NCBI RefSeq assembly: GCF_900103475.1
Contig: NZ_FNHG01000022.1
Location: 1-50,178 of the forward strand
Direction of reading: 5' to 3'
From: Maricaulis salignorans
Lineage (GTDB): Bacteria > Pseudomonadota > Alphaproteobacteria > Caulobacterales > Maricaulaceae
Length of the DNA stretch: 50,178 bases
Each line of letters opens with the position of its first letter. Position 1 is the stretch's first letter. Below, one piece after another: positions 13,945-21,774 of this stretch. The notes beneath the pieces were generated by a model that had not been told where the DNA came from, ran no database searches, and saw nothing but the letters and a program-made list of their open reading frames with translations. The position numbers and the translations under genes are program-made.

Positions 13945-15975
13945 TCAGCCGGTGACGCGAATGCCGATAGTGATAGCGCGTGGCTCGCCGGGAAAATAGC
14001 GTTCATTGCCAAAGGCAAAGTCGGCGCGCTCGGCATAACGCTCATCGAGCAGGTTTCGCACGCCCGTAAAAACCTCGATCCGTCCGGTCGGCGCATAGCG
14101 CAGACGCAGGGCCAGCAAGTCGTGCCCGTCATAGCGGTGGGCATTGGCCGCATCGGTGTAATAGGCGCCAGTATGGCTCCATTGCAGCTCGCCCGACCAG
14201 GCCGCATGAGGCTGCCAGACCAGGCGCGCATCCCACAGCCAGCGCGGCGCGGTGTCGATATCGGCGCCCACGCGGATCACCTCGCTGACCGTGCCGACGG
14301 GCCGGTCGAAATCATAGCTGTGGCGGGCCCATGTCCCGGCAAGACTGATGCGCCAGGCGGGCGCGAGGGGATAGTCGAGCTCGGCCTCAATGCCGTGATG
14401 ACGCGTGCGCCCATCGGTGACGTTGAAACCGTCCGCATCGCGGAAGAAGACATGGCGTTTGGCCATTGAGAAGGCCGTCAGCTCCAGACGGCCATCGCCC
14501 CCCAGGTTCTGGCGATAGCCCGCTTCAATACTGTCGAGCGTTTCCGGCTCGGTCCCGTCAATCTCCTGCCCCGCCTGCAGCCGGTAGAGCTCGGTCGTCT
14601 GTGGCGCACGCGCACCGCGGGCGATACGGCCAAAGAGCGAACGGTCGGCATCAAGACGCCAGATCGCGCCGGCATGCGGGGTCAGGGTCTCAAAGCTGTC
14701 AATGCGATCGCCGAGGCGCAGGAAACGCCCGATCGTGTCGGCAGCGAGGTGATTGACGTAGGCAAAGCGGGTCTGCTCGGCGCGCAGGCCGGCCTGCATT
14801 GCGAGGCTTTCGTTCACCTGCCAGCGGCCCTGGGCATAGACGGCAAGAACGTGCGCATCCACGTCGTAATCATAGTGATCGCCCTGCACGAAGGAGAAAA
14901 TGCTTGGCCGCGACTGGGTCTCGCGCAGATAGCCGCTGGTGTGCTCGTAGTCGCTGCCGATTGTGATGCGGCCACCGGCGAAATCACGCGCCGTCGAGGC
15001 GAGCAGGCCGACACTGGTATGCCCGCTTTCCTCGAGCGCCTGGGAAGGCAGGAAATGCATCAGCAAATCCATCTCATTGCCGCGCGCATAGGGCGTCAGC
15101 GACCAGGACCATCGCGATCCCCATTCCCCGTCCAGCCGCAGCGCCATGCGCACGGCGACGGCATCGCGAAAGGCTTCCGGATTGGCATTGGCGCGCGACA
15201 GGGTACGCGCTTCATAGGCGGCACCTCCGGTGACATAGCCGGCGGTTTCCTGGTTCAGCGTCACGATGCCGGCGCTCCATTGCCAGCGAACATCGCCGGC
15301 CGTCCCGTCCGCGCGGGCCAAGACGCCGACCCGATCAAGGCCCGCAGCCTCGCGCCAGCCGTCCTCATGCTGTGCCTCGACGGCCAGCACCGCACTGACG
15401 TCTGCTCCCGGCCGCGCCAGCACGCCCGAAGTGCGCACGCGCCCAAAGGAGCCCAGCTCGAACCCGGCGCGCGTGGTTGTGGTGGCCGGATCGGGGGTGA
15501 GAATATTGACCAGGCCGTGCAGCGCATTGGAGCCATGGAGCGCCGAGCCGGGGCCGCGCACCAGTTCAACGCCAGCCGCCAGACCAGTCAGGGCCTCGAA
15601 CAGCCCGTTTACATTGGCAAAACCGGCAGCACGCAGAGGCACGCCGTCTTCCAGATAGAGAAAGGAGCCAGCCCCCGCACCGCCGGTCAGGACGGGGGAG
15701 CGGATCGCGGTGAGATGTTCGGCGCCATTGCCGCGATTGATATTGGCCCCTGCCGAGCGGTTGAGCAGTTCGGACACATGCTGTGCCCCGACCAACTCGA
15801 TCTCAACCGCATCGATCACGGCAACCGGGATAATCGCCGCGTCCCGCGGCTCGCCGCGCCGGTCGGCCGTGACAGTAATGATATCCTGCGCCCCCGCGGG
15901 CGCACTGGTCAGGCAAGCCGCAATGGCCAGAAGAAGACCGGCCCACATCGCAGCTCTGGCACATGGGCCCGGCAT
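13945..15975 (-). CDS. TonB-dependent outer-membrane receptor
   Basis: About 676 residues. Signal peptide (MWAGLLLAIAACLTSAPAGAQ), then a plug domain beginning with a TonB-box-like ITVTADRR, the conserved VELVRGPGSALHGSNALHG block, LEDGVPLRAAG, and a beta-barrel ending in GIRVTG. Substrate unknown; the short plug and barrel resemble siderophore/vitamin-type receptors more than carbohydrate ones. The start is ambiguous: ATG 15975 lies 5 nt past the hisIE stop, and ATG 15948 is nearer the signal peptide; neither has a strong ribosome site. Proximity to hisIE makes read-through from the his operon likely. Confidence 0.9.
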   Translation of the reverse strand: MPGPCARAAMWAGLLLAIAACLTSAPAGAQDIITVTADRRGEPRDAAIIPVAVIDAVEIELVGAQHVSELLNRSAGANINRGNGAEHLTAIRSPVLTGGAGAGSFLYLEDGVPLRAAGFANVNGLFEALTGLAAGVELVRGPGSALHGSNALHGLVNILTPDPATTTTRAGFELGSFGRVRTSGVLARPGADVSAVLAVEAQHEDGWREAAGLDRVGVLARADGTAGDVRWQWSAGIVTLNQETAGYVTGGAAYEARTLSRANANPEAFRDAVAVRMALRLDGEWGSRWSWSLTPYARGNEMDLLMHFLPSQALEESGHTSVGLLASTARDFAGGRITIGSDYEHTSGYLRETQSRPSIFSFVQGDHYDYDVDAHVLAVYAQGRWQVNESLAMQAGLRAEQTRFAYVNHLAADTIGRFLRLGDRIDSFETLTPHAGAIWRLDADRSLFGRIARGARAPQTTELYRLQAGQEIDGTEPETLDSIEAGYRQNLGGDGRLELTAFSMAKRHVFFRDADGFNVTDGRTRHHGIEAELDYPLAPAWRISLAGTWARHSYDFDRPVGTVSEVIRVGADIDTAPRWLWDARLVWQPHAAWSGELQWSHTGAYYTDAANAHRYDGHDLLALRLRYAPTGRIEVFTGVRNLLDERYAERADFAFGNERYFPGEPRAITIGIRVTG

Positions 15976-15979
15976 GGCG

Positions 15980-16600
15980 CTATTGCGCCGCGCGGACCGC
16001 GTGACGCTTGCGCAACACGGCGACGACATCCTCAAGGCTCAGATCGCGCGACTCCAGCAGCACCAGCAAGTGGAAGATCAGATCGGCGGATTCCTCTGCG
16101 ACCGCTGTCCGGCTTTCCGAGACGGCAGCCAGGGCGACTTCCACCCCCTCCTCGCCGACCTTCTGGGCCGGACGCTTTGGCGCGCGCGCCATCAGCGAGC
16201 CGACATAGGAGCCCTTGGGCTTGTCCTTTTTGCGCTTCTTGATGATCGCGCGCAGATGCGCCAGGAAACCCAGGCCCGGTCCGGGATCATCGCCGAAACA
16301 ACTCACCGTGCCGGTATGGCAGGCGGCGCCCTTCGGCTTGACCTCGACCAGGAGCGTGTCCTGATCACAATCCAGCGCGATATTGACCAGTTTGAAACTG
16401 AGGCCCGAGGTCTCGCCTTTTTTCCAAAGAGACTGCCGTGACCGGCTGAAAAAATGGACCTTTCCAGTTTCCTGGGTCAGTTGCAGAGCTTCAGCATTCA
16501 TATAGCCGAGCATCAGGACCTGGCGCGTCGCGGCATCCTGGATAATCGCGGGCACCAGCCCGTCACCCTTGGCCCAGTCCAGGGAATTCGTGTCGATCAT
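15980..16600 (-). CDS. hisI: Bifunctional phosphoribosyl-AMP cyclohydrolase / phosphoribosyl-ATP pyrophosphatase
   Basis: HisIE fusion of about 206 residues catalysing steps 2 and 3 of histidine synthesis. The HisI half has [30 protein letters not shown] and [12 protein letters not shown] (zinc cysteines and His). The HisE half has [14 protein letters not shown] and [16 protein letters not shown] 16600 has AAGGA upstream, and its ATGA overlaps the hisF stop. In my experience most Alphaproteobacteria keep hisI and hisE separate, while this fusion is typical of Gammaproteobacteria and Bacteroidetes. Confidence 0.95.
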
Positions 16601-17364
16601 GTCCTTACCCTGATACCCGCTTGGTCGAGACAGGCTTTCAATTCGCCGATCCCGAAGACCTGTTTGTGAAACACGCTGGCCGCCAGCGCGCCGTCGACAT
16701 TGGCGGCATTGAAGACGGATTTGAAGTCTTCCTTGCTGCCCGCACCGCCTGAAGCAATCAAGGGTGTGGAACACACGGCCCGCGCCGCTGCAAGCTGTTC
16801 AATATCATAACCCTCGCGCACCCCGTCCTGGTCCATGCAATTGAGCACGACCTCGCCGGCACCGCGATCTATGCCCTCGGCGATCCAGTCGAGCGTCAGG
16901 CGCTGCGAGATCTGCGTCTTGTCCGGATCGCCGGTATATTGGTGAACCTGCCACTGACCGTCGATCCGGCGGCTATCAACGCCCAGCACGACGCATTGGC
17001 AGCCAAATTCCGCTGCCAGCGCATCGATCAGTCCGGGGTTTTCCAACGCCGGTGAGTTGATCGAAATCTTGTCAGCCCCGGCAAACAGGCGTGCCCTTGC
17101 ATCATCGATCGTGCGAATGCCACCGGCGACGCAGAAGGGAATGTCCAGCTCTCGTGCCACAGCCGTGACCCAGGCGGGCTCTACCGTCTGCCCGCGCGTG
17201 CTGGCGGCGATGTCGTAGAAGACCAGCTCGTCAGCGCCTTCAGCCGCATAGCGGCGGGCGAGATCGACAATGCCGCCGACATCCTCGTGATCGCGAAAGC
17301 GCACGCCCTTCACGACACGGCCATCGCGCACATCGAGGCAGGGAATTATCCGTCTTGCGAGCAT
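16597..17364 (-). CDS. hisF: Imidazole glycerol phosphate synthase, cyclase subunit
   Basis: 255-residue TIM barrel that uses ammonia from HisH to convert PRFAR to imidazole glycerol phosphate and AICAR. Catalytic Asp11 sits in [16 protein letters not shown]; the [34 protein letters not shown] and LIASGGAGS phosphate-binding blocks are present. The start lies 19 nt inside the hisA end, giving coupled translation. Confidence 0.97.
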
Positions 17365-18080
17365 GCCAGCGCCTCTTTCAGCGTGAAAATGCCCTCATAG
17401 AGCGCCTTGCCGGTGATTGCCCCGGCCATGCCGAGCTTGCGCACGGCTTCAAGATCGGCCAGCGAGGAGACGCCGCCGGAGGCCTGCCAGTCGATCTGCG
17501 GGTGGCGTTCGAGCAGGTCGGCATAGAGCGCCAGATTGGGGCCGGACAGATCGCCATCGCGGCTGATATCGGTGACCAGGGCGTGTTTGAGCCCCGAGCC
17601 GTCATAGGCGGCGATCACTTCGGGCAAGGTCGTCATCATCATGTCGGTCCAGCCCTGCAGGGCGGGGCGATAACTGCCGCCGAGGCGTTTGACATCCAGC
17701 GCCAGCGTGAGGCTCTGGGGCCCGTATTGATCAATCCATTCACGGACCTGCGGCGCATCGGTCACGGCGAGCGAACCAATGATGACGCGCTCGACGCCGA
17801 TCGCGAGCAGGCTCTCGATATCTTCCGCCGAACGGACACCGCCGCCGGTCTGCACCCGCAGCCCGGTCTGACAAATCTCGCGAATGGTCTCGCTCTGGCG
17901 CCGCGCACCATCACGGGCACCGGCAAGATCAACGACATGGACCCAGCTCGCCCCGGCCTCGCCGAAGGCTTCCGCAACCGCGACCGGGTCATCGCCATAA
18001 TCAGTGACGGCATCGAAAGCGCCCTTGTGCAGGCGCACGACGCGGCCCTCGAGCAGATCAATGGCGGGGTAGAGGATCAT
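17346..18080 (-). CDS. hisA: ProFAR isomerase
   Basis: 1-(5-phosphoribosyl)-5-[(phosphoribosylamino)methylideneamino]imidazole-4-carboxamide isomerase, about 244 residues. It begins [17 protein letters not shown] with the catalytic Asp at residue 8; the second Asp is in [16 protein letters not shown], and the QTGGGVRS and ASGGVSS loops bind phosphates. ATG 18080 is chosen because it forms ATGA with the hisH stop and has GGAG upstream. Confidence 0.96.
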
Positions 18081-18676
18081 GATATCGCTCCGGCGAAATT
18101 CATCAGGATACGGGCACCGGCAGCGCCGGAGCGTTCGGGGTGGAACTGGCAACCGGCGACATGGCCCTTGCGGACCAGGGCGGAGACCGGCGTGCCATAG
18201 TCACAGACGGCACGCGTTGCCGGGCCAGGCGCGGCGTAATAGCCGTGCACGAAATAGACATGGCTGCCTGACTCGATTCCTGCCAGAAGCGGCTCGTCCG
18301 GGTCGAGCTCTTCCAGTTCGTTCCAGCCCATATGCGGCCAGACCAGACCCTCAGCCCGCGGCAGGCGGATGATATCGCCAGCGATCAGGCCGAGCCCGTC
18401 GACGCCGCCCTCTTCGGAGCGGTCGAACAGGAGCTGCATGCCCAGGCAAATGCCGAGCAGGGGCCGGTCGTCGCCGCGCAATAACTCGGCCCAACCACGA
18501 TCAGTCAGGCGCGCCATGGCTGGCGCCGCTGAGCCGACGCCAGGCAGGATCAGCCGGGCGCAATCGCCCAGATCAAACGGTGTGGCGGCCGCGACATGGT
18601 CGAGCCCTGCCCGTTCCAGCGCAAAGCGTACCGAGGCGAGATTGGCGCAGCCGGTATCGATGACACCGATCTTCAT
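18077..18676 (-). CDS. hisH: Imidazole glycerol phosphate synthase, glutaminase subunit
   Basis: 199-residue class I glutamine amidotransferase that supplies ammonia to HisF. The LPGVGSA oxyanion loop, nucleophile Cys77 in LLGICLGMQL, and the HPERSG His-Glu pair near residues 180-184 complete the triad. It overlaps both neighbours (ATGA with the hisDB stop and with hisA). Confidence 0.96.
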   Translation of the reverse strand: MKIGVIDTGCANLASVRFALERAGLDHVAAATPFDLGDCARLILPGVGSAAPAMARLTDRGWAELLRGDDRPLLGICLGMQLLFDRSEEGGVDGLGLIAGDIIRLPRAEGLVWPHMGWNELEELDPDEPLLAGIESGSHVYFVHGYYAAPGPATRAVCDYGTPVSALVRKGHVAGCQFHPERSGAAGARILMNFAGAIS

Positions 18677-20574
18677 TCGAGGAATTCCTTGGTCGATGGC
18701 AGACGCTCACTCTCGATCCGCACCGCCTGGCGCAGCGCCCGGCCAAAGGCCTTGAACGAGCCCTCGACCATGTGGTGGGCATTCTCGCCCTCGACGCGGA
18801 CATGGATCGCCGCTTTCATCGATTCCGCCAGCGAACGGAAAGCGTGCGGTACCATCTCGACCGGGAATTCTCCGACGCGCTCGCCGGGGATCTCGCCCTC
18901 GAATTTGGCAAAGGGCCGTCCCGACAGATCGATCCAGACCCCGGCCCGCGTCTCGTCCATCGGCAGTTCAAAGCCGAAACGGGCAATGCCGCGCTTGTCG
19001 CCCAGCGCCTCGTGCAAGGCTTCGCCGAGCGTCAGGCAGACATCCTCAATCGTGTGGTGGGCATCGATCTCCAGATCGCCGCTCGCGTCGATATTGACCG
19101 CGATACCGGCATGGCGGGCGATCTGGTCGAGCATGTGATCGAAATAGCCGATACCGGTCGAGATCGCGCTCGGCCCGTCGCGGTCGAGATCGACGAAGAC
19201 GGTGATATCCGTCTCCTTGGTCTTGCGGCGCCTGGCGCTGGTGCGCAGGCGCGGACCCGATACGTCATCCGGCCAGGCCTGCGCCCATTCGCGCCGCAGC
19301 CGCATCGCAGTCGCGTGCCCGGCCAGCCCCTCGAGGGCGGCCAGACGCTCAACCGTCGGGGCCATCGCCGCTGCGCCGGCCTTGCTGGCGCGCAATATGG
19401 TGGTGGTCTTCTGAAACGCCTCGACCGTAACACCGCCATGGGCACGCGCCGCACCGCCCGTGGGCAGGGTGTGGTTAGGGCCGGCGGCATAATCACCTGC
19501 CGCTTCCGGCGCCCAGGCGCCGACAAAGATCGAACCGGCATGGCGCACGCGGCGCACCAGGGCTTCCGCCTCGCCGAGCTGCAGGATCAGGTGTTCCGGC
19601 GCATAGGCATTGGCGATGTCGGCGGCCTGATCGAGGCTTTCGCACAGGATGGTGCGCGAGTGGCGCATGGCCTGACGGGCGATATCGGCGCGCGGCAGCC
19701 CCATGAGCTGTGTTTCGACTTCAGCGGCAATCCGCTCGCGCGTGGCCGCATCGAAGCAGACCAGCATGACCTGTGCCGACGGGTCGTGCTCGGCCTGGCT
19801 CAAGAGATCGCTGGCAACGAATGCGGCGTCGGCATTCGCATCGGCGATCACCATCACCTCGCTCGGCCCGGCGGGCAGATCGACGGCGGGGCCGCCCGGA
19901 AGACTGGCGACATAGGCCTTGGCGGCAGCGACCCAGGCATTGCCCGGCCCGAAAATCTTGTCGGCACGGGGCAGACCGGCCGAGCCGGTGGCGAGCGCGG
20001 CGACGGCCTGGGCCCCGCCGATGGCATAGACCTCATCCAGCCCGAGCAGGCTGGCCGCCGCGAGCAGGACCGGATCAACGCCCTGCGGCCCCGCGGGCGG
20101 CGCAACAATGACTATCCGCGGTACGCCGGCGAGCTGGGCCGGGATGGCGAGCATGATGAGGGTCGAGACCAGCGGTGCGCTGCCGGCGGGCACGTAGAGG
20201 GCTACGACATCGACCGGTGTGGCGCGGCGCGAGGCCGTTACGCCGGGCCAGGTCTCGACACTGTAGGAGCCATAGCCCTGGCGGACGTGGAAACGGCGCA
20301 CAGCGTCGGCGGCGGCGAGGATGGCTTCGGCATCGGCCTCGTCCAGACCGGCGCGAGCGGCGGCGATGGCGGCTGCATCGACGCGAAAATCCGCCGGGGC
20401 GTAACCATCGAGACGGTCAGCATAATCGCGCACGGCCGCCTCACCGCCGGCATAAATCGCATCGACGATCTCGCGCGCGGCGGCACCGGCCGTGTCGGTA
20501 GACTCCGGGCGTTGCAGCATGGCGCGGCGCGTGGCCGCGTCGGCGGCGGACCAGTTTTGGGGTTCAAGCATCAT
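18673..20574 (-). CDS. hisD-hisB: Fused histidinol dehydrogenase - imidazoleglycerol-phosphate dehydratase
   Basis: One uninterrupted frame of about 633 residues. Residues 1-435 are a full HisD, matching the roughly 434-residue stand-alone enzyme: zinc/catalytic residues Gln260 and His263 (LLSQAEHD), Glu327-His328 (YAPEHL), Asp361 (GDYAAGPNHTLPT) and His420 (GLAGHA). Residues 437-633 are a full IGP dehydratase without phosphatase domain: RKTKETDITV (450-459), GYFDHMLDQIARH, DAHHTIED (505-512) and HHMVEGSFKAFGRAL. At the junction, codons 436-437 contain ATGA out of frame (19268-19265), possibly a relic of an overlapping stop/start. No ATG, GTG or TTG with a ribosome site precedes the HisB part in frame except Met424. 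HisD and IGPD catalyse the last and the sixth steps. Start at 20574, directly after the hisG stop. Confidence 0.9.
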   Translation of the reverse strand: MMLEPQNWSAADAATRRAMLQRPESTDTAGAAAREIVDAIYAGGEAAVRDYADRLDGYAPADFRVDAAAIAAARAGLDEADAEAILAAADAVRRFHVRQGYGSYSVETWPGVTASRRATPVDVVALYVPAGSAPLVSTLIMLAIPAQLAGVPRIVIVAPPAGPQGVDPVLLAAASLLGLDEVYAIGGAQAVAALATGSAGLPRADKIFGPGNAWVAAAKAYVASLPGGPAVDLPAGPSEVMVIADANADAAFVASDLLSQAEHDPSAQVMLVCFDAATRERIAAEVETQLMGLPRADIARQAMRHSRTILCESLDQAADIANAYAPEHLILQLGEAEALVRRVRHAGSIFVGAWAPEAAGDYAAGPNHTLPTGGAARAHGGVTVEAFQKTTTILRASKAGAAAMAPTVERLAALEGLAGHATAMRLRREWAQAWPDDVSGPRLRTSARRRKTKETDITVFVDLDRDGPSAISTGIGYFDHMLDQIARHAGIAVNIDASGDLEIDAHHTIEDVCLTLGEALHEALGDKRGIARFGFELPMDETRAGVWIDLSGRPFAKFEGEIPGERVGEFPVEMVPHAFRSLAESMKAAIHVRVEGENAHHMVEGSFKAFGRALRQAVRIESERLPSTKEFLE

Positions 20575-20575
20575 C

Positions 20576-21457
20576 TCAGGCCAGCATTTTCTCGATCGGC
20601 AGAACCAGGATGGCGCGCGCGCCCTCCTTCTCCAGCGCTTCCAGGGTTTCCCAGAAGACGCGCTCGCGGCACACCGCATGCAGCGCCACGACATCATCGC
20701 GGCCCGCGACCTGGGCGATGGTCGGCGCATCGGCGCCGGGCAGCAGCGCACGGATCGCGTCGAGCCGGTCTTTCGGCGCGTTGAGCATGATGTATTTGGT
20801 CTGCGAGGAGGCAATCACGCCCTCGGCGCGGCGCATCAGGATGCGGGCAATACTGTCCGTCTCCGGTGCCTGCACGCCCTTGCGCCGGATGAGGACCGCC
20901 TCGCTCTCGAACACGGTCTCGATCGCCTTGAGCCCATTGGCCTGCAGCGTCGCCCCGGAGGAGACCAGATCACAGATCGCATCGGCAATGTGCAGGCGCG
21001 GGGCGACCTCGACCGAGCCGCGCATTTCGACGATTTCGACATCGATACCGCGTGTCGCGAGATAGGCTCTGGTGATGCCGGGATAGGAGGTGGCGATCGC
21101 CTTGCCCTGCAGATCGGCAAGGTCACGGATTTCGCCCTCGACCGGCACGGCCAGTTTGAGACGGCAGGTGGCGAAACCGAGCCGCAGGGCGATTTCGAGC
21201 TCGGCGGTGCGGCCACCGGCAAGTTGTTCCTCGCGCAGCACATTTTCGCCGACAATGCCGTAATCGCAAGCGCCGCTGGCGACGAAATTCGGGATGTCAT
21301 CATCGCGCACCAGCATCAGGTCGACGGGCATGTTCTCGGCCCGCTGGTGCAGCTTGTCGCGGCCATAGGCGAAGCGCAGGCCGCAGCGCTTCAACAGATC
21401 CATACCGCCTTCGGAGAGGCGGCCCTTGCTTTGAACGGCGATGCGCAAACGGGTCAC
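20576..21457 (-). CDS. hisG: ATP phosphoribosyltransferase, long form
   Basis: First enzyme of histidine synthesis, about 293 residues, so the long HisG type with its own C-terminal ACT-like regulatory domain (about 220-293); it should not need HisZ. RIAVQSKGRLSEGG, the VRDDDIPNFVASGACDYGIVGENVL region and the PRPP-loop-like DLVSSGATLQANGL are recognisable. The start is a GTG at 21457 with AAGGA upstream; its GTGA overlaps the stop of the TrpR-like gene. Long HisG is the gammaproteobacterial type; many Alphaproteobacteria carry short HisG plus HisZ. Confidence 0.95.
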   Translation of the reverse strand: MTRLRIAVQSKGRLSEGGMDLLKRCGLRFAYGRDKLHQRAENMPVDLMLVRDDDIPNFVASGACDYGIVGENVLREEQLAGGRTAELEIALRLGFATCRLKLAVPVEGEIRDLADLQGKAIATSYPGITRAYLATRGIDVEIVEMRGSVEVAPRLHIADAICDLVSSGATLQANGLKAIETVFESEAVLIRRKGVQAPETDSIARILMRRAEGVIASSQTKYIMLNAPKDRLDAIRALLPGADAPTIAQVAGRDDVVALHAVCRERVFWETLEALEKEGARAILVLPIEKMLA

Positions 21458-21774
21458 GATTGGGTTTCCTTCAGGCGTTCGAGAATGAGGCGGTAGCCCT
21501 GCCAGGGCTCCTGGGTGAGAAAGCGCGAGACGCGGGTGACGGTGGTCGTACTGGCCCCGGTCATCTCGCTGATTTCGCGATAGGAATGACCACCTTCGGC
21601 GAGCAGACCAGCCACCCGCCAACGCTCGGTCAGCGTCTTCATCTCGCCCGGGGTGAGCAGATCGCGCAAAAAGCGTTCGCCCTCTTCCTCGGTCTTGATG
21701 GCACGCAGCGCAGCACAGAGCGGACCCAGGTCCGGCGGGTCATTACGGCGGTCGTCAGTCATGTCATCGATCAT
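21454..21774 (-). CDS. TrpR-like regulator (YerC/YecD family), probable his regulator
   Basis: 106 residues with a TrpR-type helix-turn-helix: LLTPGEMKTLTERWRVAGLLAEGGHSYREISEMTGASTTTVTRVSRFL (about 40-88). It is the first gene of the his operon, its stop overlaps the hisG start (GTGA), and AGGAGG sits 7 nt before its ATG. YerC/YecD proteins next to his genes have been proposed as histidine-responsive repressors (HisR). Control of this operon from the palindrome at 21799-21816 is inferred. Confidence 0.85.
   Translation of the reverse strand: MIDDMTDDRRNDPPDLGPLCAALRAIKTEEEGERFLRDLLTPGEMKTLTERWRVAGLLAEGGHSYREISEMTGASTTTVTRVSRFLTQEPWQGYRLILERLKETQS

Follow-up and report, generated by a model that had tools for sequence, protein, structure and literature searches.

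We examined a histidine biosynthesis locus in a 50,178-nucleotide stretch of Maricaulis salignorans DNA (contig NZ_FNHG01000022.1, hereafter the window), in which histidinol dehydrogenase (HisD) and imidazoleglycerol-phosphate dehydratase (IGPD, the product of hisB) are encoded by a single open reading frame. The operon is compact and has the gene order yerC-like, hisG, hisDB, hisH, hisA, hisF, and hisIE. The fusion gene, hisDB, lies on the minus strand at 18673..20574, and its stop-free translation is 633 amino acids (aa) long. An earlier note on this DNA had described the frame as a complete HisD followed by a complete IGPD, and a Pfam scan of all 633 aa bore this out, with Histidinol_dh at residues 24-427 (E 3.5e-138), IGPD at residues 473-614 (E 6.2e-57), and no third Pfam domain at E 0.001. 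The HisD domain comprises residues 1-433 (19276..20574), ends in a C-terminal helix, and scored 461 bits against PF00815 and 459 bits against TIGR00069 (cut-off 243.8). The IGPD domain comprises residues 444-633 and the stop codon (18673..19245) and scored 192 bits against PF00475, covering 144/144 positions. A variable linker (residues ~434-443; 19246..19275) joins them.

The catalytic residues of both enzymes are present, as the earlier note had also stated, and 16 catalytic or ligand positions are invariant in all 18 full-length copies from the genus. Those in the HisD half are Q260, H263, D361, H420, E327, and H328, among which we assigned the zinc ligands and the catalytic Glu-His pair from the positions that we take to be equivalent in E. 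coli HisD. Those in the IGPD half are H480, H506, H507, E510, D511, H577, H600, H601, E604, and K608; the metal ligands among them (H480, H506, H507, E510, H577, H600, and H601) were assigned by motif order, without superposition, from the list in the accessible text of PMC10978614. A structure model of the monomer, built from a 58-row alignment, had a mean pLDDT of 88, with a helix at residues 418-433 and values below 50 at residues 437-442. The predicted structure shows two folded enzymes joined by a disordered linker. The closest solved folds were the L-histidinol dehydrogenases 1kae and 1k75, which we take to be E. coli HisD, followed by other HisD-like enzymes and IGPDs. No solved structure matched both halves, as all 29 distinct matching PDB sequences cover one half only. 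The hisDB product is apparently bifunctional, with HisD and IGPD activities on one polypeptide.

The single HisD-HisB frame is intact in 18 of 19 Maricaulis genomes, with identity down to 64%; the copy in the 19th (G012) is partial and ends at a contig end. In all 19 copies, including the partial one, the frame is open across the junction between HisD and IGPD. The earlier note had raised the doubt that a sequencing indel created the junction, and these independent genomes exclude such an artefact. An open frame could also be used as two proteins, by internal initiation or by cleavage. An in-frame ATG lies 7-9 residues ahead of the HisD end in 18/19 copies, and an in-frame GTG or TTG occurs within the linker in 4/19. 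Against this stand the lack of a conserved start codon within the linker among the 19 copies and the place of the conserved Met, which is part of the HisD C-terminal helix and is found in several unfused HisD proteins as well. We therefore consider internal initiation less likely, and an explanation by artefact or by two separate products very unlikely overall.

Both halves of the protein are under strong purifying selection. In five close pairs, the NG86 ratio of nonsynonymous to synonymous substitution rates (dN/dS) was 0.05-0.07 for HisD and 0.009-0.014 for HisB. Constraint on the linker is weak, with a dN/dS of 0.19-0.65 in the four of five close pairs for which it could be computed. Across all pairs, for which synonymous change is near saturation, the ratio of median pN to median pS was 0.32 for HisD, 0.19 for IGPD, and 0.77 for the linker. 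The linker is 9-12 aa long within the genus when measured between phmmer domain ends; its sequence varies, and it stays in frame in 19/19 copies.

The earlier note had also pointed to an out-of-frame ATGA at codons 436-437 (19265-19268, minus strand) and had read it as the relic of two overlapping genes fused by small indels. The motif is there, but it occurs near the junction in only 1/19 copies, that of the window itself. It is thus specific to the window rather than a conserved relic of a gene overlap, and we take it to be due to chance. Among the other copies, L018 has an in-frame ATGA, L007 and L015 have an out-of-frame GTGA, and L005 has an in-frame TTGA. The same note had placed the junction at the ancestral gene boundary. 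This holds for the HisD side, which is near an old gene end, and fails for the HisB side: the motif RRKTKETD, which marks the start of the IGPD domain, is internal to a longer protein in sister genera.

HisD and HisB are separate in the 17 other genera of the family for which a match was found (one genome searched each). The earlier note had held that the fusion would be called into question if hisD and hisB were separate in close relatives. Such relatives do exist outside the genus, and they reveal how the fusion originated rather than refuting it. In the sister genera, hisB has additional coding sequence joined to its 5' end in frame, which separates it from hisD. This intervening domain is a complete HisC, the aminotransferase of the pathway, in 11 examined loci of the family and in one locus of family f5. 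Elsewhere, it is an extension of about 185-220 aa ahead of IGPD, hereafter the remnant. A query with this architecture matched through the extension in 32 of the 120 family genomes that had a match (137 genomes searched, with the query's own genome counted and 18 loci read individually). The closest relatives of Maricaulis are among the carriers of the remnant.

Pfam found IGPD alone in three of three remnant-HisB proteins, with no aminotransferase match. When compared with HisC using hhalign, the remnant aligned collinearly from end to end except for the missing pyridoxal phosphate (PLP) region, the core of the enzyme, with a score of 38 (87.6%). The score rose to 55 (96.9%) against a profile of HisC together with degenerate HisCs from order f3. 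In controls, 100 column shuffles reached at most 9.4 and 9.5, reversed profiles gave 3.2 and 2.4, and the remnant scored 9.8 against HisD. We rejected the candidate that the remnant is a relic of HisN, given its hhalign score of 2.3. By these profile comparisons, we judge that the remnant is a HisC shrunken by descent, a relic rather than a HisC enzyme.

A putative earlier stage of this decay is found in order f3. Loci L048, L050, and L112 carry a HisC domain of ~280-290 aa on IGPD (100%, E 9e-45) that lacks the PLP lysine, with SLSLAYG in place of TLSKAYG; from their sequences, we consider these loci intermediate. As a separate observation, the f3 genomes keep this lysine-less pseudoenzyme domain on IGPD and also have a stand-alone HisC. 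A HisC over the curated cut-off was found outside the operon in 17/19 Maricaulis, 7/7 remnant, and 3/3 f3 genomes. Of 10 family genomes with an intact HisC-HisB, by contrast, only G020 and G024 had one. A second HisC thus goes with decay of the operon HisC domain, although these counts come from related genomes and are not independent. Single HisC-HisB frames were seen at L031, L032, L035, L036, L038, L040, L041, L045-L047, L049, L097, L125, L126, L127, L129, L135, and L162. Ten family genomes with such a frame were checked, and in 8 of them the fusion is the sole HisC over the cut-off.

We then placed the Maricaulis operon among its relatives, using a tree of seven operon proteins with 27 rows and no distant HisD-HisB rows. 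Maricaulis was monophyletic (100/100) and fell inside a 19-row clade (100/100) that otherwise comprises G083 and remnant carriers. G083, a genome of genus g8 in the same family, encodes HisD-HisB in a single 626-aa frame (L096) and grouped with g8 at 89/99, which is not decisive. One origin for the Maricaulis and G083 fusions was not rejected (p 0.24; operon tree p 0.12). The remnant of g4 (L033) fell outside the clade, beside intact and degenerate HisC-HisB (87/69 and 97/94), and HisC decay has therefore probably occurred more than once. When the HisC-HisB loci L129 and L186 were left out because of their placement elsewhere, the alphaproteobacterial HisC-HisB, degenerate, remnant-HisB, and HisD-HisB rows formed one group of 35 (SH-aLRT 97). 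In the IGPD tree, this group lies among HisN-HisB type proteins, with modest supports. G481 (L258), from another alphaproteobacterial family, shares the remnant-HisB architecture. Its HisD is nested within the remnant clade of Maricaulaceae (0.994); this HisD placement, which we used while leaving the HisB placement out, suggests transfer of the operon.

Taken together, we think it probable that the Maricaulis fusion arose by erosion of a HisC domain that once stood between HisD and HisB. In the ancestral operon, HisC would have been fused to HisB, giving the order hisG-hisD-[hisC-hisB]-hisH-hisA-hisF-hisIE. The operon HisC domain would have become dispensable through a second, stand-alone hisC, and the domain would then have lost its PLP core and persisted on HisB as a remnant of ~200 aa. 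Finally, the remnant may have been deleted together with the hisD stop codon, which would have set HisD directly on IGPD. The path would thus lead from a separate hisD followed by HisC-HisB, through a separate hisD followed by remnant-HisB, to HisD-HisB.

The rival explanation offered by the earlier note, in which neighboring, overlapping hisD and hisB were fused by small indels at their overlap, conflicts with the gene arrangement in the family. HisC (11 loci) or the remnant (18 loci) intervenes in every examined family locus with separate genes, and the ATGA is found in the window alone. Adjacent separate hisD and hisB do exist, in L121 (Anoxybacillus) and G796, and the clean junction and short linker would suit this model, which may also describe a final step following loss of the remnant. 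In addition, G776 (L259), an alphaproteobacterium of another family, has bare hisD and hisB that overlap. G776 is not in the clade of Maricaulis and remnant carriers, and its position is not fixed by the tree (supports 0.43-0.77). Its overlapping genes lowered our confidence in erosion slightly and raised that in the indel model by the same small amount; we regard the indel model as improbable.

Besides G776, several observations weigh against erosion of an intervening HisC as we describe it. The likeness of the remnant to HisC escaped Pfam (3/3 proteins) and phmmer with HisC. A structure model of the remnant, built from a three-row alignment and with 85 residues below pLDDT 50, matched HisC 3ly1 at a probability of 0.91, the top non-IGPD entry among the best 50 of 374 rows, but with an E of 0.23, and its Foldseek HisC matches had E > 0.1. 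No HisC over the cut-off was found in Maricaulis G006 (90% complete) or G007 (69%). The operon tree does not settle how Maricaulis, g8, and the remaining remnant carriers branched, and a change from remnant-HisB to HisD-HisB within one genus was seen, if at all, only in g8, where the fused genome, G083, is 88% complete and has a long branch. In the Rhodothermales order described below, L240, L241, and L244 have hisD followed by HisN-HisB with no hisC between them, so the route may differ by group. The last change may also have taken two steps, in which the remnant was lost first and the adjacent hisD and hisB fused later.

Single HisD-HisB frames are also found in two distant groups, SAR86 and a Rhodothermales order. 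They occur in at least 18/121 genomes of the SAR86 order (12/12 fetched loci checked plus 6 further stop-free rows; L220 has no HisD start in frame) and in at least 20/114 genomes of the Rhodothermales order to which L118 belongs (12/12 fetched loci checked plus 8 further stop-free rows, including L119, which was checked). A ready-made fusion could have reached Maricaulis by horizontal transfer from such a lineage: the domain order is the same, and transfer of whole his operons is proposed in the accessible text of Fani 2007 (PMC1963479). Approximately unbiased (AU) tests, for which plain HisN-HisB rows were thinned to 16 and 3 Rhodothermales HisN-HisB rows were added, argue against this. They rejected one group of Maricaulaceae HisD-HisB with SAR86 HisD-HisB (p 2.8e-4), one group with Rhodothermales HisD-HisB (p 4e-6), and a single clade of all HisD-HisB (p 1e-35). 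The concatenated Maricaulis operon proteins also group with their own family in the operon tree. We therefore rejected a horizontal origin from SAR86 or Rhodothermales and find transfer hardly credible. A single origin for the SAR86 and Rhodothermales fusions was not rejected (p 0.23). Because the tests reject joining Maricaulaceae to the distant fusions and allow the other unions, HisD-HisB arose at least two times; we do not claim four. The larger trees held 8/18 Maricaulis, 7/12 SAR86, and 9 Rhodothermales HisD-HisB rows, after L141 (IGPD match of 100 aa), L137, L138, and L181 were dropped.

Among 398 genomes sampled from the phylum (E 1e-100), G796 was rejected as a candidate HisD-HisB fusion, being two adjacent genes, which left the window as the only one among the rows. 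A sample of 385 genomes of the class gave matches in 279; among the matches listed, that of the window alone ran from the HisD side past residue 502 of the query. G776 and G481 both belong to this class sample. Other fusions came to light beside these. L186, from a Cyclobacteriaceae bacterium (Bacteroidota), encodes HisC-HisB in one frame of 536 aa. This protein groups with HisNB of Bacteroidota, and its fusion probably has a separate origin. L134 (Myxococcaceae, 797 aa) and L153 (Photorhabdus CRCIA-P01, 813 aa) have hisD and hisC in one open frame and are possible HisD-HisC fusions.

The Rhodothermales order also holds a candidate predecessor. At L238 and L239, a separate hisD is followed by a HisB with an N-terminal domain of ~130 aa (the n domain), and these loci form the sister group of the HisD-HisB rows (SH-aLRT 95.9). 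Against HisN, a two-row profile of the n domain gave 47.7% with a score of 27.9, and single sequences gave 1-2%. When the n domain was combined with four further short domains, the score was 67, compared with a maximum of 14.3 in six-row shuffles and 88 for L128, one of the four, alone. These comparisons give moderate support to the n domain being a decayed HisN. We also noted short degenerate N-terminal domains on HisB at L128, L152, L160, and L163: for L128, decay from HisN is clear (98.9%); the signal of L160 is weaker (53%), and L152 and L163 gave no signal alone. As direct predecessors, L240, L241, and L244 were rejected, since they are not beside the HisD-HisB rows in the trees. No predecessor was seen for SAR86. 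Each of the genomes that carry L117, L118, L119, and L122 encodes a HisC over the cut-off elsewhere.

These stages allow a broader, tentative reading, which we hold to be somewhat less than evenly probable, in which the IGPD of compact his operons acts as a ratchet. Its N-terminal partner would decay once a paralogue takes over the partner's job, the relic would be deleted, and the next upstream gene would join. In Maricaulis, HisN-HisB would have become HisC-HisB upon loss of hisN, then remnant-HisB, and then HisD-HisB; in Rhodothermales, HisN-HisB would have passed through the decayed n-HisB to HisD-HisB. The product would be a shell of ~1.6 MDa with HisD dimers outside.

What is known of the two enzymes would accommodate such an arrangement. 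HisD carries out the last two steps of histidine synthesis, and its steps and that of IGPD are not consecutive in the pathway. According to the accessible text of PMC10978614, the 24-meric assembly of IGPD is conserved between kingdoms and its N-terminal sheet is on the outer surface; that of PMC7284861 describes HisD as a homodimer. Given the outward IGPD N-terminus and the HisD dimer, HisD would be expected outside the 24-mer shell, perhaps as 12 dimers.

Selection may have favored the fusion because of a role specific to it, for example that of setting HisD on the IGPD shell. This would concern its retention and is compatible with an origin by erosion. Its origin at least twice, its retention in Maricaulis and in the SAR86 and Rhodothermales genomes counted above, and the outward N-terminal sheet of IGPD, on which HisD would fit outside, are in favor. 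Against it are the non-consecutive steps and the weak constraint on the linker, and a decaying domain at the same place in both lineages for which a predecessor can be suggested explains recurrence without contact between the enzymes. We consider selection for such a function doubtful. Because the enzymes are non-consecutive and a decaying domain stands at the same spot in both of these lineages, we see in the fusion chiefly a consequence of loss that has been tolerated.

The genes flanking hisDB lie on the same strand. Upstream, hisG (20576..21622; TIGR00070 and TIGR03455) opens at a TTG, and its domain begins only at residue 59; the real start is probably further downstream. Downstream, hisH (18077..18676; TIGR01855) overlaps the stop codon of hisDB by 4 nt (18673-18676). 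It is followed by hisA (17346-18152), hisF (16597-17364), and hisIE (15980-16774), which were identified by an NCBIfam scan and whose frames may each start too early. Neither hisC nor hisN was among the window frames scanned around the operon. Elsewhere in the genome, one stand-alone hisC over the curated cut-off was found on contig C32 and one hisN over the cut-off (TIGR02067 family) on contig C24; with these, the late steps of histidine synthesis look complete. A TrpR-related gene of the YerC/YecD family (21454-21774, minus strand) adjoins hisG, as a gene of this family does in many other his loci, and we presume that its product is a histidine regulator, probably HisR. A TonB-dependent receptor gene (13945-16035, minus strand) lies directly downstream of hisIE.

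Histidine synthesis is a standard case for pathways shaped by gene fusion, and in the usual picture neighboring or successive enzymes join. In Maricaulis, a new fusion seems to have come from loss, in that a fused domain decayed to a relic without enzyme function, the relic was deleted, and the next upstream enzyme took its place. The case also cautions against assuming that the pathway is what brings two fused enzymes together. Because the relic stages survive in living relatives, the path is open to direct testing. If the ratchet holds, dead domains on the 24-mer are its visible steps, and loss, not joining, is a general route to new multifunctional enzymes.

The his fusions named in the accessible text of PMC1963479, PMC7284861, and PMC8305728 are hisNB, hisIE, hisHF/HIS7, and HIS4 (IE-D), and HisC is absent from the seven fused his genes given in the first two. 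The accessible text of PMC11237513 describes archaeal fusions of HisA/F with HisIE and names no HisD-HisB. Literature matches to 'hisDCB' of Corynebacterium were set aside, as we took them for gene-order names. The earlier note knew of no described HisD-IGPD fusion, and we likewise found no description of a HisD-HisB or HisC-HisB fusion in open-licence PubMed Central, although one may exist elsewhere or in database annotation.

HisDB resembles HisNB of the E. coli type in that IGPD is the C-terminal half of a two-enzyme protein encoded in the same compact operon. Among the listed NCBIfam HisB models, the best for the IGPD part was the C-terminal half of PRK05446 (275 bits). The match is limited to profile positions 165-354 and falls below the whole-protein cut-off of 443, which places the protein outside HisNB. 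The N-terminal partner is HisN in HisNB and HisD in Maricaulis, where HisN is encoded elsewhere. Fungal HIS4 (HisI-HisE-HisD) likewise joins HisD to other histidine enzymes (Fani 2007, PMC1963479), but HisD is C-terminal there, with HisI and HisE as partners, whereas in Maricaulis it is N-terminal and partnered with IGPD; according to the accessible text of that paper, its search of prokaryotes returned no HIS4-like protein. In Balneolota and M. roseus, HisB has a short N-terminal domain of unexplained origin (PMC8305728, section 3.2.2, accessible text). Like the remnant, this domain is shorter and has no known enzyme match; the Maricaulaceae domain differs in being a decayed HisC, and the comparison with the Balneolota proteins is by description only. 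Decayed domains may explain such short N-terminal domains of HisB in other phyla. HisC-HisB of Maricaulaceae differs from HisDB in having the aminotransferase HisC as its N-terminal partner and hisD as a separate gene. It shares with HisDB a homologous IGPD and the same place in the operon, and it is the likely ancestor of HisD-HisB.

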